Below, piece after piece: positions 4,462-54,870 of a stretch of DNA of 54,947 nt (within the stretch, counting starts at the first letter, position 1; each line of letters starts with the position of its first letter). The stretch spans positions 1-54,947 of the forward strand of contig NZ_FOIF01000009.1 of NCBI RefSeq assembly GCF_900111575.1. The letters are read 5' to 3'. The position numbers were made by a program, and so were the translations under genes. Origin of the DNA: Anaerobranca gottschalkii DSM 13577. Its GTDB lineage: Bacteria; Bacillota; Proteinivoracia; Proteinivoracales; Proteinivoracaceae. The notes beneath the pieces were generated by a model, which worked only from the letters and a program-made list of their open reading frames with translations, did no database searches and was not told where the DNA came from.

Positions 4462-5361
4462 TTACACTTTCAAAAATCTCCTTAGTGAAATTCCACTACC
4501 TAAAGCACCTAAACCTAAACCAAGAACTGTTAAATACCTCACTAAAATAGGGAAAATTTGGTCAAGGGTAAGCAATGGAATTGTTATCATACTTTCAGGA
4601 ATATTATTATAAACTGTTTCTAATGCATAGTTGTAGCCATAGTATAGGATTAATAAAGAAATACCTGTTCCAATTGCCCCTAACAATAATCCTTCAATAA
4701 TAAATGGCCAGCGGATAAACCAATCTGTTGCACCAACGAATTTCATTATTGTGATTTCTTTCCTTCTCGCATAAACTGTAAGTTTAATTGTATTTGAAAT
4801 TAAAAATACTGCCATAATAAACATAATAGTCATAAAGCTAAAACCAATCCACTGTATTAAATTTAGAGCGGTAAAGAGTTTTTCTACAACTTCTTGGCCA
4901 TATTGGACATTATCAACAAAAGGTATATTTTCAATCCTTTGAGCAATATCTCCAACCTGTTCAGGATCTTCTAATGCTATCTCAAAACTTGCCGGCAAAG
5001 GATTTCTTTCATCAAAACCAGCAGTTATATCTTCATATTCCCCTAATATTTCCCGCAAACGTTGAAGGGCCTCTTCTTTAGAAACATAGCGGATTTCTTT
5101 TATACCTCGAATGGTTAACAGTTCATCCCTTACTAAATCTATATGTTGTTCTTCAGCTTCTAAATCCAGGTATGCAACAATTTCAACTTGGGACTTTAAT
5201 TCATCAATCATCACTTGTAAATTACTATTGAAAATTATAAAAATACCTAAGACTAATAATGTGGCAAAGGTCACTCCTGCAGAAGCTATGGTCATCCAGC
5301 GATTTTTGGAAACCCCTAAGACAGCCTCTTTTGTAAAATAGAGGGCATTTCTAAAAATCAT
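4462..5361 (-). CDS. ftsX: Cell-division ABC transporter permease FtsX
   Basis: A 299-residue FtsX: an N-terminal membrane segment (about 20-45), an extracellular domain (about 45-160, with SQVEIVAYLD) and three C-terminal membrane segments with the conserved cytoplasmic stretch VYARRKEITIMKFVGATDWFIR. FtsX passes the ATP-driven signal of FtsE across the membrane to wall hydrolases. The ATG at 5361 is preferred: GGGAGG lies nine bases upstream, and it overlaps the ftsE stop by 11 bases, typical of translational coupling. An upstream ATG at 5385 would lie deep inside ftsE and has no better ribosome site. Confidence 0.95.
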   Translation of the reverse strand: MIFRNALYFTKEAVLGVSKNRWMTIASAGVTFATLLVLGIFIIFNSNLQVMIDELKSQVEIVAYLDLEAEEQHIDLVRDELLTIRGIKEIRYVSKEEALQRLREILGEYEDITAGFDERNPLPASFEIALEDPEQVGDIAQRIENIPFVDNVQYGQEVVEKLFTALNLIQWIGFSFMTIMFIMAVFLISNTIKLTVYARRKEITIMKFVGATDWFIRWPFIIEGLLLGAIGTGISLLILYYGYNYALETVYNNIPESMITIPLLTLDQIFPILVRYLTVLGLGLGALGSGISLRRFLKV

Positions 5362-6037
5362 TGTTATAACCTCCCTTAACATCATCTCTGACTATTTTTC
5401 CATTTTTTACTCCGATTACCCTGTGGCGATATCTATCAACTATATCTCTGGCATGGGTGGCCATAACAATTGTAGTTCCCCTTAAATTAACTTTATTAAG
5501 TAAAGACATAATTTCTTCAGATGTTTCAGGGTCGAGATTACCCGTTGGTTCATCACAAACTAGTAAAGAGGGTTGGTTTACCAAAGCTCTGGCAATAGAA
5601 ACCCGCTGCTGTTCTCCCCCTGATAATTGATGGGGATAATTTTTAATTTTATCTTGTAATCCAACAAATTCTAGGACTTGTAAGACTTTCTTTTTAATTT
5701 CCCGGCTCGGTGTATTAATTACCCTTAAGGCAAAGGCAACATTATCATAAACATTTTTTTCTGATAGCAAACGGAAATCTTGGAAAACAACTCCCATCTG
5801 CCTTCTCAGATATGGAATTTCCCTGTCTTTCATCATAGTGACATTGCGATTAAACATAAATAGCTGACCTTTTTTAATATCAACTTCTTTATAGATTGCT
5901 TTAAGTAAAGAGGATTTCCCTGCACCACTAGGTCCTACAATATATACAAATTCACCTTTATCTATTTTTAAATTAACATCTGTTAATGCATAAGTACCAT
6001 TGGGATAACATATTGAAACATTTTGAAAAATTATCAC
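5351..6037 (-). CDS. ftsE: Cell-division ABC transporter ATPase FtsE
   Basis: A 228-residue ABC ATPase with Walker A GPSGAGKSS (about residues 36-44), signature LSGGEQQR (about 138-145) and Walker B LLVCDEPTGNLD (about 157-168). It powers FtsX at the membrane to control wall hydrolysis. It is the first gene of the ftsE-ftsX-M23-ctpB-minJ series and overlaps ftsX. Confidence 0.96.
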   Translation of the reverse strand: MIIFQNVSICYPNGTYALTDVNLKIDKGEFVYIVGPSGAGKSSLLKAIYKEVDIKKGQLFMFNRNVTMMKDREIPYLRRQMGVVFQDFRLLSEKNVYDNVAFALRVINTPSREIKKKVLQVLEFVGLQDKIKNYPHQLSGGEQQRVSIARALVNQPSLLVCDEPTGNLDPETSEEIMSLLNKVNLRGTTIVMATHARDIVDRYRHRVIGVKNGKIVRDDVKGGYNNDF

Positions 6038-6275
6038 AAAATTTCACTCCTCATTCTAAGTATATTTGGTGTAACTAAAAAATTGCTGCGTCAATTAAAG
6101 ATAGAGGATCAATAAATTCTTTTTGACATTTATTATTTCGACACATTTCCTGTAATTCCTCTATAATAATTTTCAATTCAGCAATTTTTTTCTATATAAA
6201 TATTAAAGCATTGAATTTCTTCCTTTACAATGGTAAAATCTTCTCAAGATTGTCACCAAAATACTATCTCCTGAG
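6038..6275 (-). other. Intergenic stretch with a possible decayed reading frame
   Basis: About 340 bp separate the divergent ftsE and birA. On the minus strand, roughly 6080-6230 translates as EEIQCFNIYIEK and then, after a one-base change of frame inside a run of seven A, as AELKIIIEELQEMC followed by a short tail and a stop. The amphipathic helical composition looks protein-like, but there is no good start and I do not recognise a family. It may be a remnant or chance. No T-box or other riboswitch pattern was seen here. Confidence 0.25.
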
Positions 6276-6304
6276 TTGACAATCCACCTTTCATAACTTA
6301 TACT
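6276..6304 (+). promoter_or_regulatory. SigA-type promoter for birA-bioY
   Basis: A perfect TTGACA (6276-6281) is separated by 17 bases from TATACT (6299-6304), about 70 bp before the birA start. I did not find a clear BirA operator palindrome around it. Confidence 0.7.
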
Positions 6305-6377
6305 TTTGATACAATCTTAGTTTTCTTTTATGCTGGAAGTTTTTTTCTGATATATTTTGTGAACAGAGGTGCTATTG

Positions 6378-7358
6378 ATGGATATCACTATAAAAGTACT
6401 AAAGATCCTATTAGAAAATCCCCACAAAAGACTATCTGGTCAATACATAAGTGAAAAATTAGGAGTTAGTAGAAACGCCGTTTGGAAAGCTGTAGAAATA
6501 CTACGTAAAGAAGGTTACCAGATCGATGGGGTAACTAACAAAGGATATTCCTTAAAAAAAATCCCAACTGATATAAACAGCTATTACTTAGAACTTTCTT
6601 TAGGTAGTTTTTGGCAAAGGGTTATTGTAGAAAAAGAAGTCGAATCAACTAATAAGTTAATGAAAGAACTAGGAAATTCTTTGCCAGATAAAAGTGTGTT
6701 AATTGCCTCAAGACAATGGGGTGGCATCGGAAGATTAGGTAGGTCTTGGTCATCCCCAGAAGGGGGCCTGTGGTTTTCCCTTTTACTGAAACCCCAACTA
6801 CCAATGGAAGAATTGCCCTTAATAACCTTGACGATGGCTGCTGCTATGTGGGAAGGACTATATAATCATCTAGGTATTGAGGTAAAAATCAAGTGGCCTA
6901 ATGATATCATCTGGGATGGAAAAAAACTGGCCGGCATTTTAACGGGTGTGAAAGGGGATATGGATAAAGTAGATTACCTCATTGTTGGAATAGGGATAAA
7001 TGTAAATAACCCTATACATCCTGAACTGAAAGGTATAGGGTTATCTCTAAAGGATGTAGTCAAAAAAGAAGTAAATCTTAACTATTTACTGATAGAAATT
7101 TTAAATTGTATCCAAAAATATTACCAGTTATTTTTAACTGACAAAAGGGAAGATATTTTAATCATAAACAAAGAACAGTCCACACTTTTAGGAAAAAGAA
7201 TTATAATTTCTAGCTTTAAAGGAAAAGAAGAAGGTTTTGCCAAAGATATCGGCAATGATGGCAGCCTAATTATTGAAGATGACAATAAACAGATTAGGAA
7301 GGTGTTTAGTGGTGATGTTTCCCTCAAAGAATGGTATAAAAATTCTAATACTAACTAG
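6378..7358 (+). CDS. birA: Bifunctional biotin-protein ligase / biotin repressor
   Basis: A 326-residue BirA. It has an N-terminal winged helix (about residues 1-60, SGQYISEKLGVSRNAVWKAV), a central ligase domain with the biotin/ATP loop GGIGRLGRSW and KWPNDIIWDGKKLAG, and a small C-terminal domain. It attaches biotin to carboxylase carriers through biotinyl-AMP and, because it keeps the DNA-binding domain, should also repress biotin genes. The ATG at 6378 follows AGAGGTG by six bases; a GTG at 6369 overlaps that ribosome site and is less likely. Its end overlaps bioY, so supply and use of biotin are coupled. Confidence 0.93.
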   Translation: MDITIKVLKILLENPHKRLSGQYISEKLGVSRNAVWKAVEILRKEGYQIDGVTNKGYSLKKIPTDINSYYLELSLGSFWQRVIVEKEVESTNKLMKELGNSLPDKSVLIASRQWGGIGRLGRSWSSPEGGLWFSLLLKPQLPMEELPLITLTMAAAMWEGLYNHLGIEVKIKWPNDIIWDGKKLAGILTGVKGDMDKVDYLIVGIGINVNNPIHPELKGIGLSLKDVVKKEVNLNYLLIEILNCIQKYYQLFLTDKREDILIINKEQSTLLGKRIIISSFKGKEEGFAKDIGNDGSLIIEDDNKQIRKVFSGDVSLKEWYKNSNTN

Positions 7359-8826: not shown

Positions 8827-9630
8827 TTACTCTAGTTCTTTTAAGGCTTGTTGCAATTGTTCTTCACTAGGTGCTGTGCCATGCCACTCTGCTTTGTTTT
8901 CCATAAAGGAAACCCCTTTACCTTTTACAGTTTTAGCAATGATTATTGAAGGTTTGCCTTTAGTATTTTTAGCATTTTCGATAGCTGCCAATATTTCATC
9001 ATAATTATGGCCATCGATAACCTGTACATGCCAGTTAAAAGCTTCCCATTTTTTATCTAGTGGTGTTACACCCATTACATCTTCAACATCACCATCAATT
9101 TGTAGACCATTGTAATCTAAGAAAGCAATAACATTATCTAACTTGTAATGGGCAGCAGTCATGGCAGCTTCCCACACTTGTCCTTCTTGAACTTCTCCAT
9201 CACCTAGCAATACGTAAACATAATATGGGCTGTTATCTAACTTCCCTGCTAAAGCCATACCATTGGCTACTGATAACCCTTGCCCAAGAGAACCTGAAGT
9301 CATATCCACTCCAGGGATAGCTTTCATATCGGGATGACCTTGTAATAATGAATCGATTTTTCTAAAACCTTTCATTTCTTCCTTAGGGAAAAAGCCCCGC
9401 TCTGCTAAAACACCATAAAGAACTGGTGAGGCATGGCCTTTACTTAACACAAAGCGATCCCTATCTTTTTTGTGTGGATTTTGAGGATCAATGTTCATTA
9501 CATGGAAATATAGAGCTGTTAGAATTTCTACAGCTGATAATGAACCTCCTGGATGACCAGATTTCCCTGCAGTAACCATTTCTAAGATATTTCTCCTCAC
9601 TTGTTTAGCAATTACCTTTAGATTTTCCAC
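8827..9630 (-). CDS. Transketolase, N-terminal subunit
   Basis: A 267-residue thiamine-diphosphate-binding half of transketolase. It shows the cofactor motif [20 protein letters not shown] (about 144-163) with the downstream Asn in [10 protein letters not shown], plus [10 protein letters not shown] and [12 protein letters not shown]. Split transketolases are common in anaerobic Firmicutes and archaea. It pairs with the gene at 7878-8813. GGAGG lies just before the ATG. Confidence 0.92.
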
Positions 9631-9651
9631 AATTTTTACCTCCTTTAAAAA

Positions 9652-10482
9652 TTATTCTATACTGGAAAAACCTTCACCTAAAGCTTCAGTGACATCACTA
9701 ACAACTACAAATGCTTTCTTATCTACTTCATAGACGATTTCCTTAAGTTTAGCAATTTCCATTTGACTTACTACACAAAAAAGGATATCCCTTTTTTCAC
9801 CGGTATAAACTCCTTTACCTTTTAAGCTTGTGGCGCCTCGGTTTAATTTATACAAAATAGCTTCACTAATTTCTTGGGGGTTATTAGAAATGATGTAAGC
9901 CATCTTAGAAACCCTAAAACCTTGTTGTGTCAAATCAATTACTTTACCGGTTACATAAACAGAAATTAGTGCATACATGGCAAGTTCTGCATTAAATACC
10001 ATTCCAGCAAAAGCAATTACTAAAAAGTCAATAATTAAAATTGATTGTCCTACAGTGAAACCAAAAAATTTGTTTAATAGCTGCCCAGCTAAAGCCGTTC
10101 CCCCTGTAGATCCACCGGCTCTAAATATAATGCCTAAACCTACTCCCATCAATACGCCTCCGAAGATGGTAGCTAATAAAAGGTCTTCGGTAAAAACAGG
10201 GGTCCATTCTGTAAAAGCGATCAATGCAGGTAATAAATAAGTTCCCACTAAACTTTTTACACCAAACTTTTTACCTAAATAAACGACCCCAGCAATAAAT
10301 AGGGGAATATTCACAACTACTATAGTGATACTTACCGGTAAACCGAATAAGTAATAAAGGACTGTTGCTAAACCACTTACTCCCCCTGCAGCTATTTTAT
10401 TGGGGATAAGTAAACCATTTAAACTTATTGCCATTATAAAGCATCCGATTACTATCATCGTATACTCTTTAATTAAACGCAT
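9652..10482 (-). CDS. YitT-family membrane protein (DUF2179)
   Basis: A 276-residue protein with five or six membrane segments over about 1-190 and a C-terminal cytoplasmic DUF2179-type domain (RGATSLKGKGVYTGEKRDIL), the usual YitT architecture. Conserved stretches GGVSGLATVLYY and FRAGGSTGGTALAGQLLNK are visible. The biochemical role of the family is not settled. It is 11 bp behind the DUF2993 gene and 21 bp before the transketolase pair, so it is probably part of the prfB transcript. Confidence 0.88.
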   Translation of the reverse strand: MRLIKEYTMIVIGCFIMAISLNGLLIPNKIAAGGVSGLATVLYYLFGLPVSITIVVVNIPLFIAGVVYLGKKFGVKSLVGTYLLPALIAFTEWTPVFTEDLLLATIFGGVLMGVGLGIIFRAGGSTGGTALAGQLLNKFFGFTVGQSILIIDFLVIAFAGMVFNAELAMYALISVYVTGKVIDLTQQGFRVSKMAYIISNNPQEISEAILYKLNRGATSLKGKGVYTGEKRDILFCVVSQMEIAKLKEIVYEVDKKAFVVVSDVTEALGEGFSSIE

Positions 10483-15481: not shown

Positions 15482-15542
15482 TTTCCATCACCTGATTTTT
15501 TTAAATTAATTATATCACAAATTTACCATAAAAAGAATAAAG

Positions 15543-15728
15543 GCTGTGGTAATTAAACATTCTAACAAAGTTCTGCGTCGAGATTTAAGGCTTCTATCTA
15601 AAAGGAAGAAGGAATTTTTCCCCTTCTTCCTTTTATCTAATCAGCTCTTAAATCTATCTCCTCAACTTAATCGTATCTTTGTTTAATTACCACAGCTGAT
15701 GATGACTTTGTCTATATTTTGTCTTCAG
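15543..15728. repeat. Palindromic non-coding element, copy A
   Basis: Bounded by 17-bp perfect inverted repeats, GCTGTGGTAATTAAACA at 15543-15559 and its complement at 15680-15696. The right side extends about 30 bp further (GATGACTTTGTCTATATTTTG). The arms fold back on each other imperfectly and meet in a GGAAGAAGG/CCTTCTTCC hairpin at the centre. The same sequence recurs at 42790-42931 and 54601-54870. It has no reading frame, so it is MITE-like or a folded intergenic repeat. Confidence 0.85.
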
Positions 15729-29745: not shown

Positions 29746-30530
29746 TTAAAATTTATACCTTTTATTATCACCTTTTAAAGTGTAAACACCTACCCCAATT
29801 AAAATAGCAATACAAACAAGGGCTGTGGTGATAACCACTGGATATTGACCAGCAAAACCCTGTTCAGAAAGGTGTTAATTACAATTCCTGTATAAGCCCA
29901 AAGAAAAACTAAACCATAAGGAATATCTTTATTCTTAATTACCACTGAGCTACCAATAATTGTACCTACTAATAAAATAATAACCATCCAAGTTCCTTCT
30001 GAAAGGCTAAAACCACCCCAACCAATACTCACTAAAAAGATAGTTAAATTTGCTATTGTGGCGACGGTTATCCAACCATAGTAAACACTAAAGGGAAGGC
30101 TCACCATCCAATATTCACCGGTTGTTTCTTTAGAAATTCTTATTAAAGACAAGAGTATTATCAACATCGGTATAACGGTCAAGGAAATCAAGTCATAATG
30201 CCATAGGAAAATCCATAGTGTATTAGCAAGGGAAGATATTACAAAGTAAAGGCCTATAGTATTAAATTTTTCTTTACTAATTCTAGAAGAATATTTTCCT
30301 ATTAAGCCTAGTTGATAAATGAGATATACAAATAATAAAAGATAAATGATTCCCCAAATGCTGAAGGTTATCCCTGCCGGGGCAAATAGGTTAGGATAAG
30401 AATCAGAAATATCTTCTGTTCTCATTCCATTGATAAGCAAAATATTAGCTAAACTATTAACGATGACCATCAACAAAAAGGTTATTACTGTAAAGATTTT
30501 TATTGGCCTTTAAGCTTCTTTTTTAAACAC
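29746..30530 (-). pseudogene. TspO/MBR-like membrane protein, doubly disrupted
   Basis: The open part (29799-30476) is a five-helix TspO/MBR-like protein (DSYPNLFAPAGITFSIWGIIY). The family binds porphyrins or related ligands in membranes. The GTG at 30530 behind GGGGGG reads VFKKEA and hits TAA at 30510; the same frame continues as RPIKIFTVITFLLM into the body. Near 29873 a missing base in a T run diverts the C-terminus; restoring it gives FSEQGFAGQYPVVITTALVC, a proper last helix ending at 29746. Both lesions point to decay, although an internal start at 30476 could give a truncated product. Confidence 0.7.
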
Positions 30531-30641
30531 AAACAACCCCCCTTTATTTTTTATTCCTATTTAAGGAAATCCCTGTATATTTATATAATTTCGATAAATT
30601 TAAGCAAATTCCTTTATTTTCTAACTTTTTAAATCAATTAA

Positions 30642-30704
30642 TCAAAGAAAAATAACCTTAAGTCGATTCTGACCTAAGGTTATTTCAGTTCATCGGCTAT
30701 AAAA
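30642..30704. repeat. 63-bp direct repeat, copy 1, carrying a terminator hairpin
   Basis: Almost identical to 31992-32054 (about two differences). It contains AATAACCTTA/TAAGGTTATT as a 10-bp stem followed on the minus strand by TTTTTC, so it works as a terminator for the ImmA/IrrE module. The stop codon of a short upstream frame (TATAG) falls inside the repeat. Confidence 0.85.
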
Positions 30705-30830
30705 GATATTTTTTAAAGCTACCTATGTCTTCTACTTTCATTCGGCAAGCCCCTCCACTCCTTTTTTAATTTTACTTTTTAGTTCAAGTAAAAACTCAAA
30801 ATTATCTTTATGACTGGAAACATCTGGGTT
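30705..30830 (-). other. Remnant reading frames between the ImmA-like gene and its terminator
   Basis: After the TAG that ends the ImmA/IrrE gene, the same frame stays open for 30 more codons (NPDVSSHKDNFEFLLELKSK). Its TGA overlaps the ATG of a 14-codon frame MKVEDIGSFKKYLL as ATGA, behind GGAGTGGAGGGG. This looks like the start of a third, coupled gene that is now mostly deleted. No product is claimed. Confidence 0.35.
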
Positions 30831-31532
30831 CTATTTTATAACACTTTGGATTTTCTTCTCCAATCCACCTAAACTTATAACATATGAGGGTTTTACCAAT
30901 TCTGCGTCCAGTTCCAAATCTATAAATTTCTGCACTAAACTCTTAGGCTTGTTGTCAAAATTAGCTAAAATTTTTTCTTTTAAATCTAAATCATTATATT
31001 TTGTAACGGCTTCTTCAAATAGTTCTATTAAAACAGCCTTATATGGTGCCTTGAATACATCCATACATTTTATGATTCTATCGATAAAATCTTCATCATC
31101 CAATGAATAGTAATAATCATACAGATTGCCAAAAATCATTTTTGCAGCAAAATAGTCTGCTCTTCTCTCATTTAAATCCATATCAACGGCAATATTATGT
31201 GTAGCTTCCCTTAAATTAGGATCATAAAATAAATGATATATTTCATGCCATGCTACAAAATATTGATATACACGGGGCTGGGCTGTATTGATAACTGGTA
31301 TTTTAATACTTCCCTTTGTAATAATAGCACCGCCCCAATACTCATCATCAATAGGAATCTGGATTAAGTGATTCTCTCTTAATACCGAAAAAGACAGCTT
31401 ATCCTGTCCCATTACCCTAGACTTATTAAATCTGACTATAAAATCATTTATTAATCTTAAAATGTCATCTTTAATCAGGTTATTTTTTTCAACAACCTGC
31501 TCAAGGTTATTACTAGTTATTAATTCTGACAT
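30831..31532 (-). CDS. ImmA/IrrE-type zinc metallopeptidase
   Basis: A 233-residue protein with the zinc motif HEIYH (in YFVAWHEIYHLFYD) and the following glutamate motif NERRADYFAAKMIFG, both typical of ImmA/IrrE (COG2856). Such peptidases cut a partner helix-turn-helix repressor and control mobile elements, stress responses or toxin-antitoxin pairs. Its likely partner is the HTH gene directly upstream, whose stop lies 13 bp before this ATG. The ATG at 31532 is preferred to a GTG at 31565 that overlaps the HTH gene. The catalytic residues are complete, but its partner is broken. Confidence 0.85.
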   Translation of the reverse strand: MSELITSNNLEQVVEKNNLIKDDILRLINDFIVRFNKSRVMGQDKLSFSVLRENHLIQIPIDDEYWGGAIITKGSIKIPVINTAQPRVYQYFVAWHEIYHLFYDPNLREATHNIAVDMDLNERRADYFAAKMIFGNLYDYYYSLDDEDFIDRIIKCMDVFKAPYKAVLIELFEEAVTKYNDLDLKEKILANFDNKPKSLVQKFIDLELDAELVKPSYVISLGGLEKKIQSVIK

Positions 31533-31545
31533 AATATCACCATTC

Positions 31546-31919
31546 TTAATCGTAATACAGTTCACACATATGAACTATATCTTCTAAAATACCAAACATC
31601 TTTTGAGCATTGGGTTTCATGGCATGATTTTTTGGCGCATTGTCAGACAATGCAAAAACAAGTTCCTTCTTTGTATTATACTTTGGAACATAGTCAAGTA
31701 GTTGTTGTTCATCTATACCCTGATTTTCTAGTATTTTTCTAATATGAGTCTTAAAAGTAGCAAAGCTATCAACTTCTCCCTTGATTAATTTATCTAAAGT
31801 AGGTCTTGAAATATTGATAATCCTAGAAAAAGAGACCTTTGTATACCCATTATCTTTAATATTTTCAAAATATTTTCACCTATTAGCTTTCTATTTTCAA
31901 ATAATAATTCCATACTCAT
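31546..31919 (-). pseudogene. Helix-turn-helix regulator, frameshifted; partner of the ImmA-like protease
   Basis: The frame from ATG 31919 (MSMELLFENRKLIGENI) is diverted after about 17 codons and stops early. Supplying one A near 31868 gives KYFENIKDNGYTKVSFSRIINISRPTLDKLIKG and then an open frame to the stop at 31546. The whole would be a DNA-binding protein of about 125 residues, with the recognition helix in SRPTLDKL. It lies immediately before the protease and behind a 17-bp palindrome, as expected for a self-regulated repressor or antitoxin. Either the gene is inactivated or the base is a sequence error. Confidence 0.7.
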
Positions 31920-31922
31920 TTT

Positions 31923-31958
31923 TTACAGATATGTAAAAAAATTTTTACATATCTGTAA
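31923..31958. promoter_or_regulatory. 17-bp perfect palindrome, likely operator of the HTH/ImmA pair
   Basis: TTACAGATATGTAAAAA (31923-31939) is repeated inverted at 31942-31958 with a two-base spacer. It lies just before the ATG of the HTH gene, where an autorepressor would bind. No clear Shine-Dalgarno sequence lies between it and the ATG. Confidence 0.75.
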
Positions 31959-31991
31959 TATAGGTAATTAAATTCAATATCAGCTCCCTTT

Positions 31992-32054
31992 TCAAAGAAA
32001 AATAACCTTAAGTCGATTCTGACCTAAGGTTATTTAAATTCATCGGCTATAAAA
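31992..32054. repeat. 63-bp direct repeat, copy 2
   Basis: Same sequence as 30642-30704 in the same orientation, 1,350 bp away, with the same terminator hairpin. The two copies bracket the HTH/ImmA module. Confidence 0.85.
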
Positions 32055-32200
32055 TACTTTTGATCAGCTCCAAGGCTGCATAGGGGGATAAAGTTCCAAA
32101 ATTAAGGCTATCTGGCTGTTGCTCTAAGTTATTAATTTTATTAAAATCAATAAAAATAATTAAAAAATAATTTAAACAAAATTATTTATCAGTCAACACA
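32052..32200 (-). other. C-terminal coding remnant ahead of repeat copy 2
   Basis: About 44 open codons on the minus strand end in NNLEQQPDSLNFGTLSPYAA and then ALELIKSIL before a stop inside the repeat. The composition looks like a real protein tail. It has no start and no family I recognise. It sits relative to repeat copy 2 as the 14-codon frame does to copy 1. Confidence 0.35.
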
Positions 32201-32318
32201 ACTTATGCTATGTTTACTCTGATTGGGTGTAACCCCACACCCTCTATCCCCTCCAAGTATCTCCCATATAATAGAAAACAACCAACACGAAAGCAGATAG
32301 AAAATAGGAAAACTTTTC

Positions 32319-32572
32319 TTAAGAATCCTTAAATTTAAAAACAGGATCATTATCATGGATTAAATATTTGGGAGTTTTTCCAAAGAGAGTAGCATTTCTA
32401 AATTGCTGAGTAAGCCAAAACATATTAGGATTTTTAGTTGTAGCGTAATGTATTATTTTTCTAGATCCATGTTCAATTATAATTAACACATAAAGCACAT
32501 CAAATTTTAAGGTAGGGATAGTAAAAAAATCAGTAGCCCAAGTAACATCAAGTGGTTCTTTAACATAAAATC
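32319..32572 (-). pseudogene. Integrase/DDE transposase remnant, catalytic-core half
   Basis: About 84 codons of an rve-type integrase core on the minus strand: DVTWATDFFTIPT (first catalytic Asp), SRKIIHYATTKNPNMFWLTQQ and PKYLIHDNDPVF (second Asp). It ends at a stop after FKDS. Its missing C-terminal half lies next to it on the opposite strand, so an inversion has split the gene. No N-terminal part is found. Confidence 0.8.
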
Positions 32573-32856
32573 AAAGCCTACTTCATTTAGATCCCCTTGG
32601 CAAAACCCTTATGCTGAAAAGGTTATTGGGATAATTAGGATTTACTAAATTATATTATCCCTTTTAGTGAAAGACATCTAGATTGGTTACTTAACGAATA
32701 CATTATTATTACAATACAAGTAGAAACCACCAAGGTATAAATGATAATACCCCTATCAGGAAACCTAAGTATATCCCTGTAGGTGCTAAAGAATTAAAAA
32801 TAAAAACTACCCCTGTTCTTAATGGTTTATATCATGCTTACAAAAGAGTAGCTTAA
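32573..32856 (+). pseudogene. Integrase/DDE transposase remnant, C-terminal half (opposite strand)
   Basis: On the plus strand the text reads SKPTSFRSPWQNPYAEKVIG (with the catalytic Glu in NPYAEK), then in shifted frames PFSERHLDWLLNEY and YNTSRNHQGINDNTPIRKP, ending at TAA 32854-32856. At least two base gains or losses are needed to read it through. It is the missing end of the integrase whose core lies on the minus strand immediately to the left. Confidence 0.8.
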
Positions 32857-42728: not shown

Positions 42729-42789
42729 AATCCCACCTCCTTTCACTTCATAAATAGACTTATCTATTTTTCGAAAAGGAAGAAGGGGA

Positions 42790-42931
42790 GAAACCTTCTT
42801 CCAAACTGAAGACAAACTATAGACAATACTACCATCAGCTGTGGTAATTAAACAAAGATACGATTAAGTTGAGGAGATAGATTTAAGAGCTGATTAGATA
42901 AAAGGAAGAAGGGGGAAAATCCCTTCTTCCT
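42790..42931. repeat. Palindromic non-coding element, half copy B
   Basis: One arm of the element found at 15.5 and 54.6 kb, in inverse orientation: the CTGAAGACAAACTATAGACAA end, then GCTGTGGTAATTAAACA, then GATAGATTTAAGAGCTGATT and the GGAAGAAGG centre. It is flanked on both sides by GGAAGAAGG/CCTTCTTCC hairpins (42778-42803 and 42903-42931). It lies between the YvrJ and DUF2922 genes, where the right hairpin can serve as terminator. Confidence 0.85.
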
Positions 42932-43144
42932 TTAAAAAATTTCTGTAACTTCTCTAGCCACTAAGCGGGCTGTTACCTTTTCCACTAAACTTCCGCCCGT
43001 TGAAGTAAAGACATCTTTAGCTATAATAGTATCCATAACACTCTGGACTTCACCACTATCTATTGGCTCTATTGGATCATTAAGGGATAAAGTTACTGTC
43101 CTTCCTTCTTGATTTCTAAAAACTAATTGTAAAGTTTTGCTCAT
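42932..43144 (-). CDS. DUF2922 family small protein
   Basis: A 70-residue protein (LQLVFRNQEGRTVTLSLNDP, then SVMDTIIAKDVFTSTGGSLV), matching DUF2922. Function unknown. It is 38 bp behind the DUF1659 gene with a good GGAGGGG site, and both are probably on one transcript. Confidence 0.88.
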   Translation of the reverse strand: MSKTLQLVFRNQEGRTVTLSLNDPIEPIDSGEVQSVMDTIIAKDVFTSTGGSLVEKVTARLVAREVTEIF

Positions 43145-54600: not shown

Positions 54601-54870
54601 AGTTTGTAGACAAAGTCATTTTTTAAATGCTGTGGTAATTAAACATTCTAACAAAGTTTTGCGTCGAGATTTAAGGCTTCTATCTAAAAGGAAGAAGGGT
54701 ACCGCTCTAATTCGCCATCCATGGCTCAATAGAGCTTTCGGAACGTCCTGTTCCTCACCCCTTCTTCCTTTTATCTAATCAGCTCTTAAATCTATCTCCT
54801 CGACTTAATCGTATCTTTGTTTAATTACCACAGCTGATGATGACTTTGTCTATAGTTTGTCTTCAGTTTG
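54601..54870. repeat. Palindromic non-coding element, copy C with central insert
   Basis: The longest copy. GCTGTGGTAATTAAACA is at 54629-54645 and its complement at 54818-54834. Both sides extend outward with AGTTTGTAGACAAAGTCAT on the left and its near-complement on the right, so the arms reach about 45 bp beyond the 17-bp core. Between the two GGAAGAAGG arms lies about 60 bp not present in copy A (54698-54759). It holds GCTCTA/TAGAGC and GGAAC/GTTCC hairpins and is richer in G and C. Confidence 0.85.

Follow-up and report, generated by a model that had tools for sequence, protein, structure and literature searches.

A relic of an operon for an HTH regulator, an ImmA-type protease and a predicted PIN-fold nuclease between two terminator-bearing repeats in Anaerobranca gottschalkii

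The 54,947-nt stretch of Anaerobranca gottschalkii DSM 13577 analysed here (contig NZ_FOIF01000009.1, hereafter the window) contains the damaged remains of a module of a known kind. Judged against its homologues, the locus has decayed, probably recently: each of its three genes is broken, and so is the promoter region. Two 63-bp direct repeats bracket it. We consider it probable that a horizontally acquired HTH-ImmA-PIN operon decayed here, and that repeat copy 1 is the leftover of a second unit that was duplicated and then deleted. What looks like a tidy cassette between repeats would then be a degraded operon with a duplicated terminator, and attention would turn to the intact operon, with its operator and the protein that is probably its effector. 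Coordinates of the features are given in Table 1.

Table 1. Features of the locus, in positions of the window.
Feature	Position	Strand	Remarks
Repeat copy 1	30642..30704	-	Terminator hairpin fused to codon 14 of third gene
Third-gene remnant	30697..30741	-	MKVEDIGSFKKYLL, then stop supplied by repeat; homologous to start of 289-aa PIN-like protein
ImmA/IrrE-type metalloprotease gene	30738..31532	-	HEIYH; early TAG at 30831; intact frame would reach 30738
HTH gene (Cro/C1-type, HTH_26)	31546..31920	-	1-nt deletion near codon 19, close to 31870
Operator palindrome	31923..31958		17-bp arms; now 2 bp from ATG; about 49 bp missing
Repeat copy 2	31992..32054	-	Terminator hairpin 3' of truncated gene X
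Gene X tail	32047..32125	-	Last ~25 codons (EQQPDSLNFGTLSPYAALELIKSIL, then stop), cut by insertion-sequence end
Insertion-sequence end	32126..32254		Multi-copy; sharp border at AGGTTATTAA

An earlier note on this DNA had placed an HTH gene and an ImmA/IrrE-type gene between the repeats. Both are present and their identities were supported, but the note had not seen that both are broken. In an alignment with seven homologues one base is missing from the HTH gene, AATATcATTAAAG having become AAT-ATTAAAG. Read through the frameshift, its product scored 27.7 bits against HTH_26 (cut-off 22), as compared to 40.6 bits for an intact homologue. A single-base assembly error may formally account for the frameshift; the assembly is not generally indel-ridden, because the remaining long reading frames of the window (1349, 552, 503 and 502 aa) run uninterrupted. 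The early TAG in the ImmA gene falls 31 codons before the normal end, and the lost tail still reads as in homologues. The HEIYH motif, at residues 96-100, is invariant between the window and locus L026, and the score against Peptidase_M78 was 19.8, slightly under the cut-off of 22. Homology to the third gene (gene 3) ran for 14 codons and ended abruptly, exactly at repeat copy 1, with the blastn boundary at window positions 30697-30702 in the loci reaching this part. Neither the remainder nor another copy of gene 3 was found in the genome, and no TnsA was found elsewhere in it. The dN/dS of the ImmA remnant was about 0.09, like that of intact pairs. Because this is still the value of a constrained gene, the damage may be recent, or the shortened ImmA may still be useful.

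The palindrome upstream of the HTH gene, with a 2-nt centre between its perfect arms, is the longest in the window and lies just before the HTH start, as the earlier note had reported. The operator reading is supported by homologues, since an inverted repeat of the form TTTGTAAAAATATTTTTTACAAA was present in all ten that were checked (arms of 7-15 bp). In nine of these, 48-57 bp separate its end from codon 2, and in L137 the distance is 92 bp; L132 and L137 have arms extended to 14-15 bp. The window palindrome has the same core, ATGTAAAAATTTTTTTACAT, as the homologue operators. Compared with seven homologues, the stretch from operator to ATG has lost about 49 bp, including a TATAAT-like (-10-like) box and a GGAGG Shine-Dalgarno sequence. 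The palindrome is best read as the operon's native operator, moved next to the ATG by this deletion. Template switching was considered as the origin of the perfect palindrome and is unneeded, given that natural arms reach 15 bp (L132).

Searching 398 genomes of the phylum (Bacillota) with the ImmA protein gave proteins 85-91% identical in several other families. Gene order was compared in the DNA of these matches and in 14 named GTDB loci, and the loci came from Thermoanaerobacterium, Clostridium sp. N3C, Fonticella, Thermotalea, Acetivibrio, Lutispora, Tepidibacter and others. A single order was found, namely HTH (~124 aa), ImmA-type (~264 aa) and a 289-aa protein. Operons with this order were intact in about ten other genomes, and a few of the loci were truncated or broken. 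The operon of regulator, protease and predicted nuclease is intact in many other Clostridia and clearly horizontally spread. Directly after a truncated copy of the operon, L071 carries a second, different HTH-ImmA-PIN-like set (4684-6435); in L069, whose contig also has a decayed operon copy, the second set is seen only as pieces of its ImmA and PIN-like genes (9252-9867).

The 289-aa gene 3 protein matched no Pfam, NCBIfam or PADLOC family above cut-off and no solved structure by sequence, and gene 3 was not found in viruses, phages or plasmids. The AlphaFold model (mean pLDDT 72.7, pTM 0.73) aligned mainly with PIN proteins, among them the PIN domain of an exosome subunit, Nmd4, HARP (RNA-free RNase P) and VapC. 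Structural matches had Z values of 6-10 (best 10.1), of which those under 8 may reflect only a common arrangement; the PIN fold is argued from the top 41 rows, nearly all of which are PIN proteins. With the model as query, Foldseek by itself found nothing that reached E 0.001, and its VapC matches were backed by the second aligner. Five acidic residues are invariant in ten sequences: D25 (ILDNN), E60, E162 (KNAGE), D189 and D191. Such a pattern is expected for PIN nucleases. Gene 3 is predicted from the model to encode a PIN-fold nuclease.

Six loci (L124, L125, L126, L127, L134 and L135) have an intact or nearly intact operon 520-580 bp upstream of the tnsA gene of Tn7-like elements; in a seventh, L136, gene 3 is decayed and tnsA is present as a fragment. 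The operon DNA of L127 and L134 shares about 91% identity with the L124 operon, but for TnsA and TnsB the identity is only 53-60%, so the operon seems to have been exchanged between Tn7-like transposons. We infer the working of the intact relatives by homology, along the lines proposed for Xre-COG2856-PIN operons (PMC2701414). The HTH protein would bind the operator and repress the operon, the ImmA-type protease would cleave the HTH protein in response to a stress or infection signal of some kind and relieve the repression, and the PIN protein would be the effector, acting on RNA. Tentatively, and with more doubt than confidence, the intact relatives may be regarded as an uncatalogued system of HTH, ImmA and 289-aa PIN-fold proteins under the conserved operator, travelling with Tn7-like transposons in thermophilic and anaerobic Clostridia and acting as a defence or addiction module.

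The two repeat copies, which the earlier note had described as nearly identical, 1,350 bp apart and in the same direction, are indeed identical at 61 of 63 positions (97%), with 44 nt exact and a start-to-start distance of 1,350 bp. They are not a chance pair, because they are the only exact direct repeat of at least 24 nt in the window outside a MITE-like family. On the minus (operon) strand the repeat reads TTTTATAGCCGATGAA(CTG/TTT)AAATAACCTTAGGTCAGAATCGACTTAAGGTTATTTTTCTTTGA, and each copy forms a stem of 15-16 bp with a 6-nt loop and a T-rich tail (RNA fold z about -5 to -6). The terminator hairpins claimed for both copies were confirmed as the only two terminator-like sites in 30500-32300, where 0.4 would be expected. 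The repeat is a stop codon, a hairpin and a T-rich tail, which make up a gene's 3' end together with the terminator. The coding tails ending at the repeats read KKYLL (copy 1) and LIKSIL (copy 2), each followed by the stop. The earlier statement that the two repeats start with the stop codons of different coding tails holds to the letter, but at copy 1 this tail is the opening 14 codons of gene 3 and not a gene end. Of the two tails that were to be compared with third genes of HTH/ImmA operons, this one is a third-gene start, and that at copy 2 belongs to gene X, which has no convincing relative (best outside match in genomes, E 0.03).

The genome holds the 63-bp sequence twice only, both times at this locus. 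No match was found in plasmids, phages, viral contigs, GTDB genomes or the 398 phylum genomes, and the sequence is absent from the homologous HTH-ImmA-PIN loci. In the 398-genome search, outside matches fell almost entirely on the AT-rich insertion-sequence end (query 135-215). A widespread ordinary terminator, named in the earlier note as what would count against its reading, did not turn up in the collections searched; within them the sequence is unique to this locus. As a candidate RNA family, the repeat gave two Rfam matches, both to eukaryotic snoRNAs far below gathering scores, and these were set aside as chance.

Several neighbouring features were recorded. Eight more full-length copies of the insertion-sequence end were matched in the genome, 84-92% identical and for the most part close to the ends of contigs. 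Beyond it lie two halves of an rve/IS3-like transposase, at 32319-32567 (-) and at about 32576-32856 (+, recognised by eye only), whose opposite strands look as though an inversion had split the gene. The MITE-like element occurs at 15538-15725, 54624-54863 and 42774-42933, in 190- and 240-bp forms with 17-bp terminal inverted repeats GCTGTGGTAATTAAACA; it has 46 matches in the genome and none in a genome of the same genus. The membrane protein gene at 29746-30509 is TspO-like by eye, with no Pfam family above cut-off; compared with the family relative L140, its C-terminal part is in another frame, and the L140 gene carries a fused hydrolase-like domain. In family relatives the ABC transporter, TspO-like and flagellin neighbours are found apart from one another, so that none of the relatives compared offers a syntenic site at which an empty locus could be sought.

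We infer the order and mechanism of duplication and deletion from the anatomy of the repeats. The 63 bp would be the stop codon and terminator of the upstream gene X. A 1,350-bp unit of terminator, operator, HTH gene, ImmA gene and the first 14 codons of gene 3 would have been duplicated in tandem at a TTTT microhomology, and the second unit would then have been deleted downstream of its first 63 bp, leaving copy 1. The spacing of the copies equals one such unit. TTTT forms the joint between copy 1 and gene 3 and is present in both partners in the same register (TTA TAG); TTTTATAG is common to both copies, and relatives of gene 3 have CTTTT or CTTTC at that point. In the 140 bp past copy 1 (30500-30641), no trace of another module copy or of the missing part of gene 3 rose above shuffles. 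Because no second-module trace lies between copy 1 and the next gene, the duplication is read only from the 63 bp. The earlier suggestion of two related modules, one of them largely deleted, fits this anatomy and is plausible. The main alternative, which would give the same appearance, is that the module was never duplicated and a deletion joined codon 14 of gene 3 to the last part of a gene X paralogue that lay downstream and carried the same terminator. The copies share exactly the stop codon and terminator, and their 5' edge, at TTTT, could plausibly be where a deletion was sealed; against this, no relative of gene X or of the terminator was found elsewhere in the genome, and we regard a joined paralogue as rather unlikely.

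The earlier note's cassette defined by its repeats is not supported by the comparison with homologous loci. The placement of the repeats would suit borders of a mobile or excisable element recombining, site-specifically or homologously, between the 63-bp copies; their 44 exact bases could allow recombinational loss, and the operon is clearly horizontally spread. However, none of the homologous loci and none of the 398 genomes has the 63-bp sequence, and none of ten intact operons checked has comparable bracketing repeats. Within 600 bp, eight of the ten had no bracketing direct repeat, and L130 and L134 had only short unrelated matches of 17 and 22 bp and a weak 54-bp one at 72%; the same border repeat was not seen around independent copies. 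The bracketed DNA also lacks an integrase, and the module itself is broken, its third gene being cut by the repeat, so that a cassette is very improbable. A dispersed terminator or small repeat element inserted twice would explain a hairpin-bearing repeat, but the genome's real dispersed element has 46 matches against two copies here, and gene 3 does not resume past copy 1; we hold such an insertion to be just as remote as the cassette.

CapH-CapP has a similar logic of HTH protein plus protease; the capP match obtained here was weak (E 2e-5), with a score far below that of PDC-M69B. The HTH and ImmA proteins both match profiles of the PADLOC candidate PDC-M69 (PDC-M69A and PDC-M69B; E 2e-7 and 4e-17), whose two components are adjacent here, the PDC-M69B profile being partly covered. 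The third gene, in contrast, matched no PDC-M69 model, and PDC-M69 is a candidate system only, for which no paper was found. ImmR-ImmA of ICEBs1 likewise has an HTH repressor and, as its partner, an ImmA protease (see PMC2701414), whereas no integrative element is present here. There is a close likeness to the Xre-COG2856 (ImmA/IrrE)-PIN operons, which were proposed to be three-component toxin-antitoxin-like modules (Makarova et al. 2009, PMC2701414) and likewise combine an HTH repressor, an HExxH Zn-protease and a PIN-type nuclease in one mobile, patchily distributed operon. They differ in that the HTH protein and the protease are here in separate genes, the PIN protein is 289 aa without a family match, and the window operon is broken. 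The window retains an Xre/Cro-type HTH protein and an ImmA/IrrE protease with HExxH (HEIYH; PDC-M69B E 4e-17); because its PIN gene is reduced to 14 codons with no other copy in the genome, it is a relic and not a complete member. Its relatives offer a testable three-gene candidate for a defence or addiction module near Tn7-like transposition genes.
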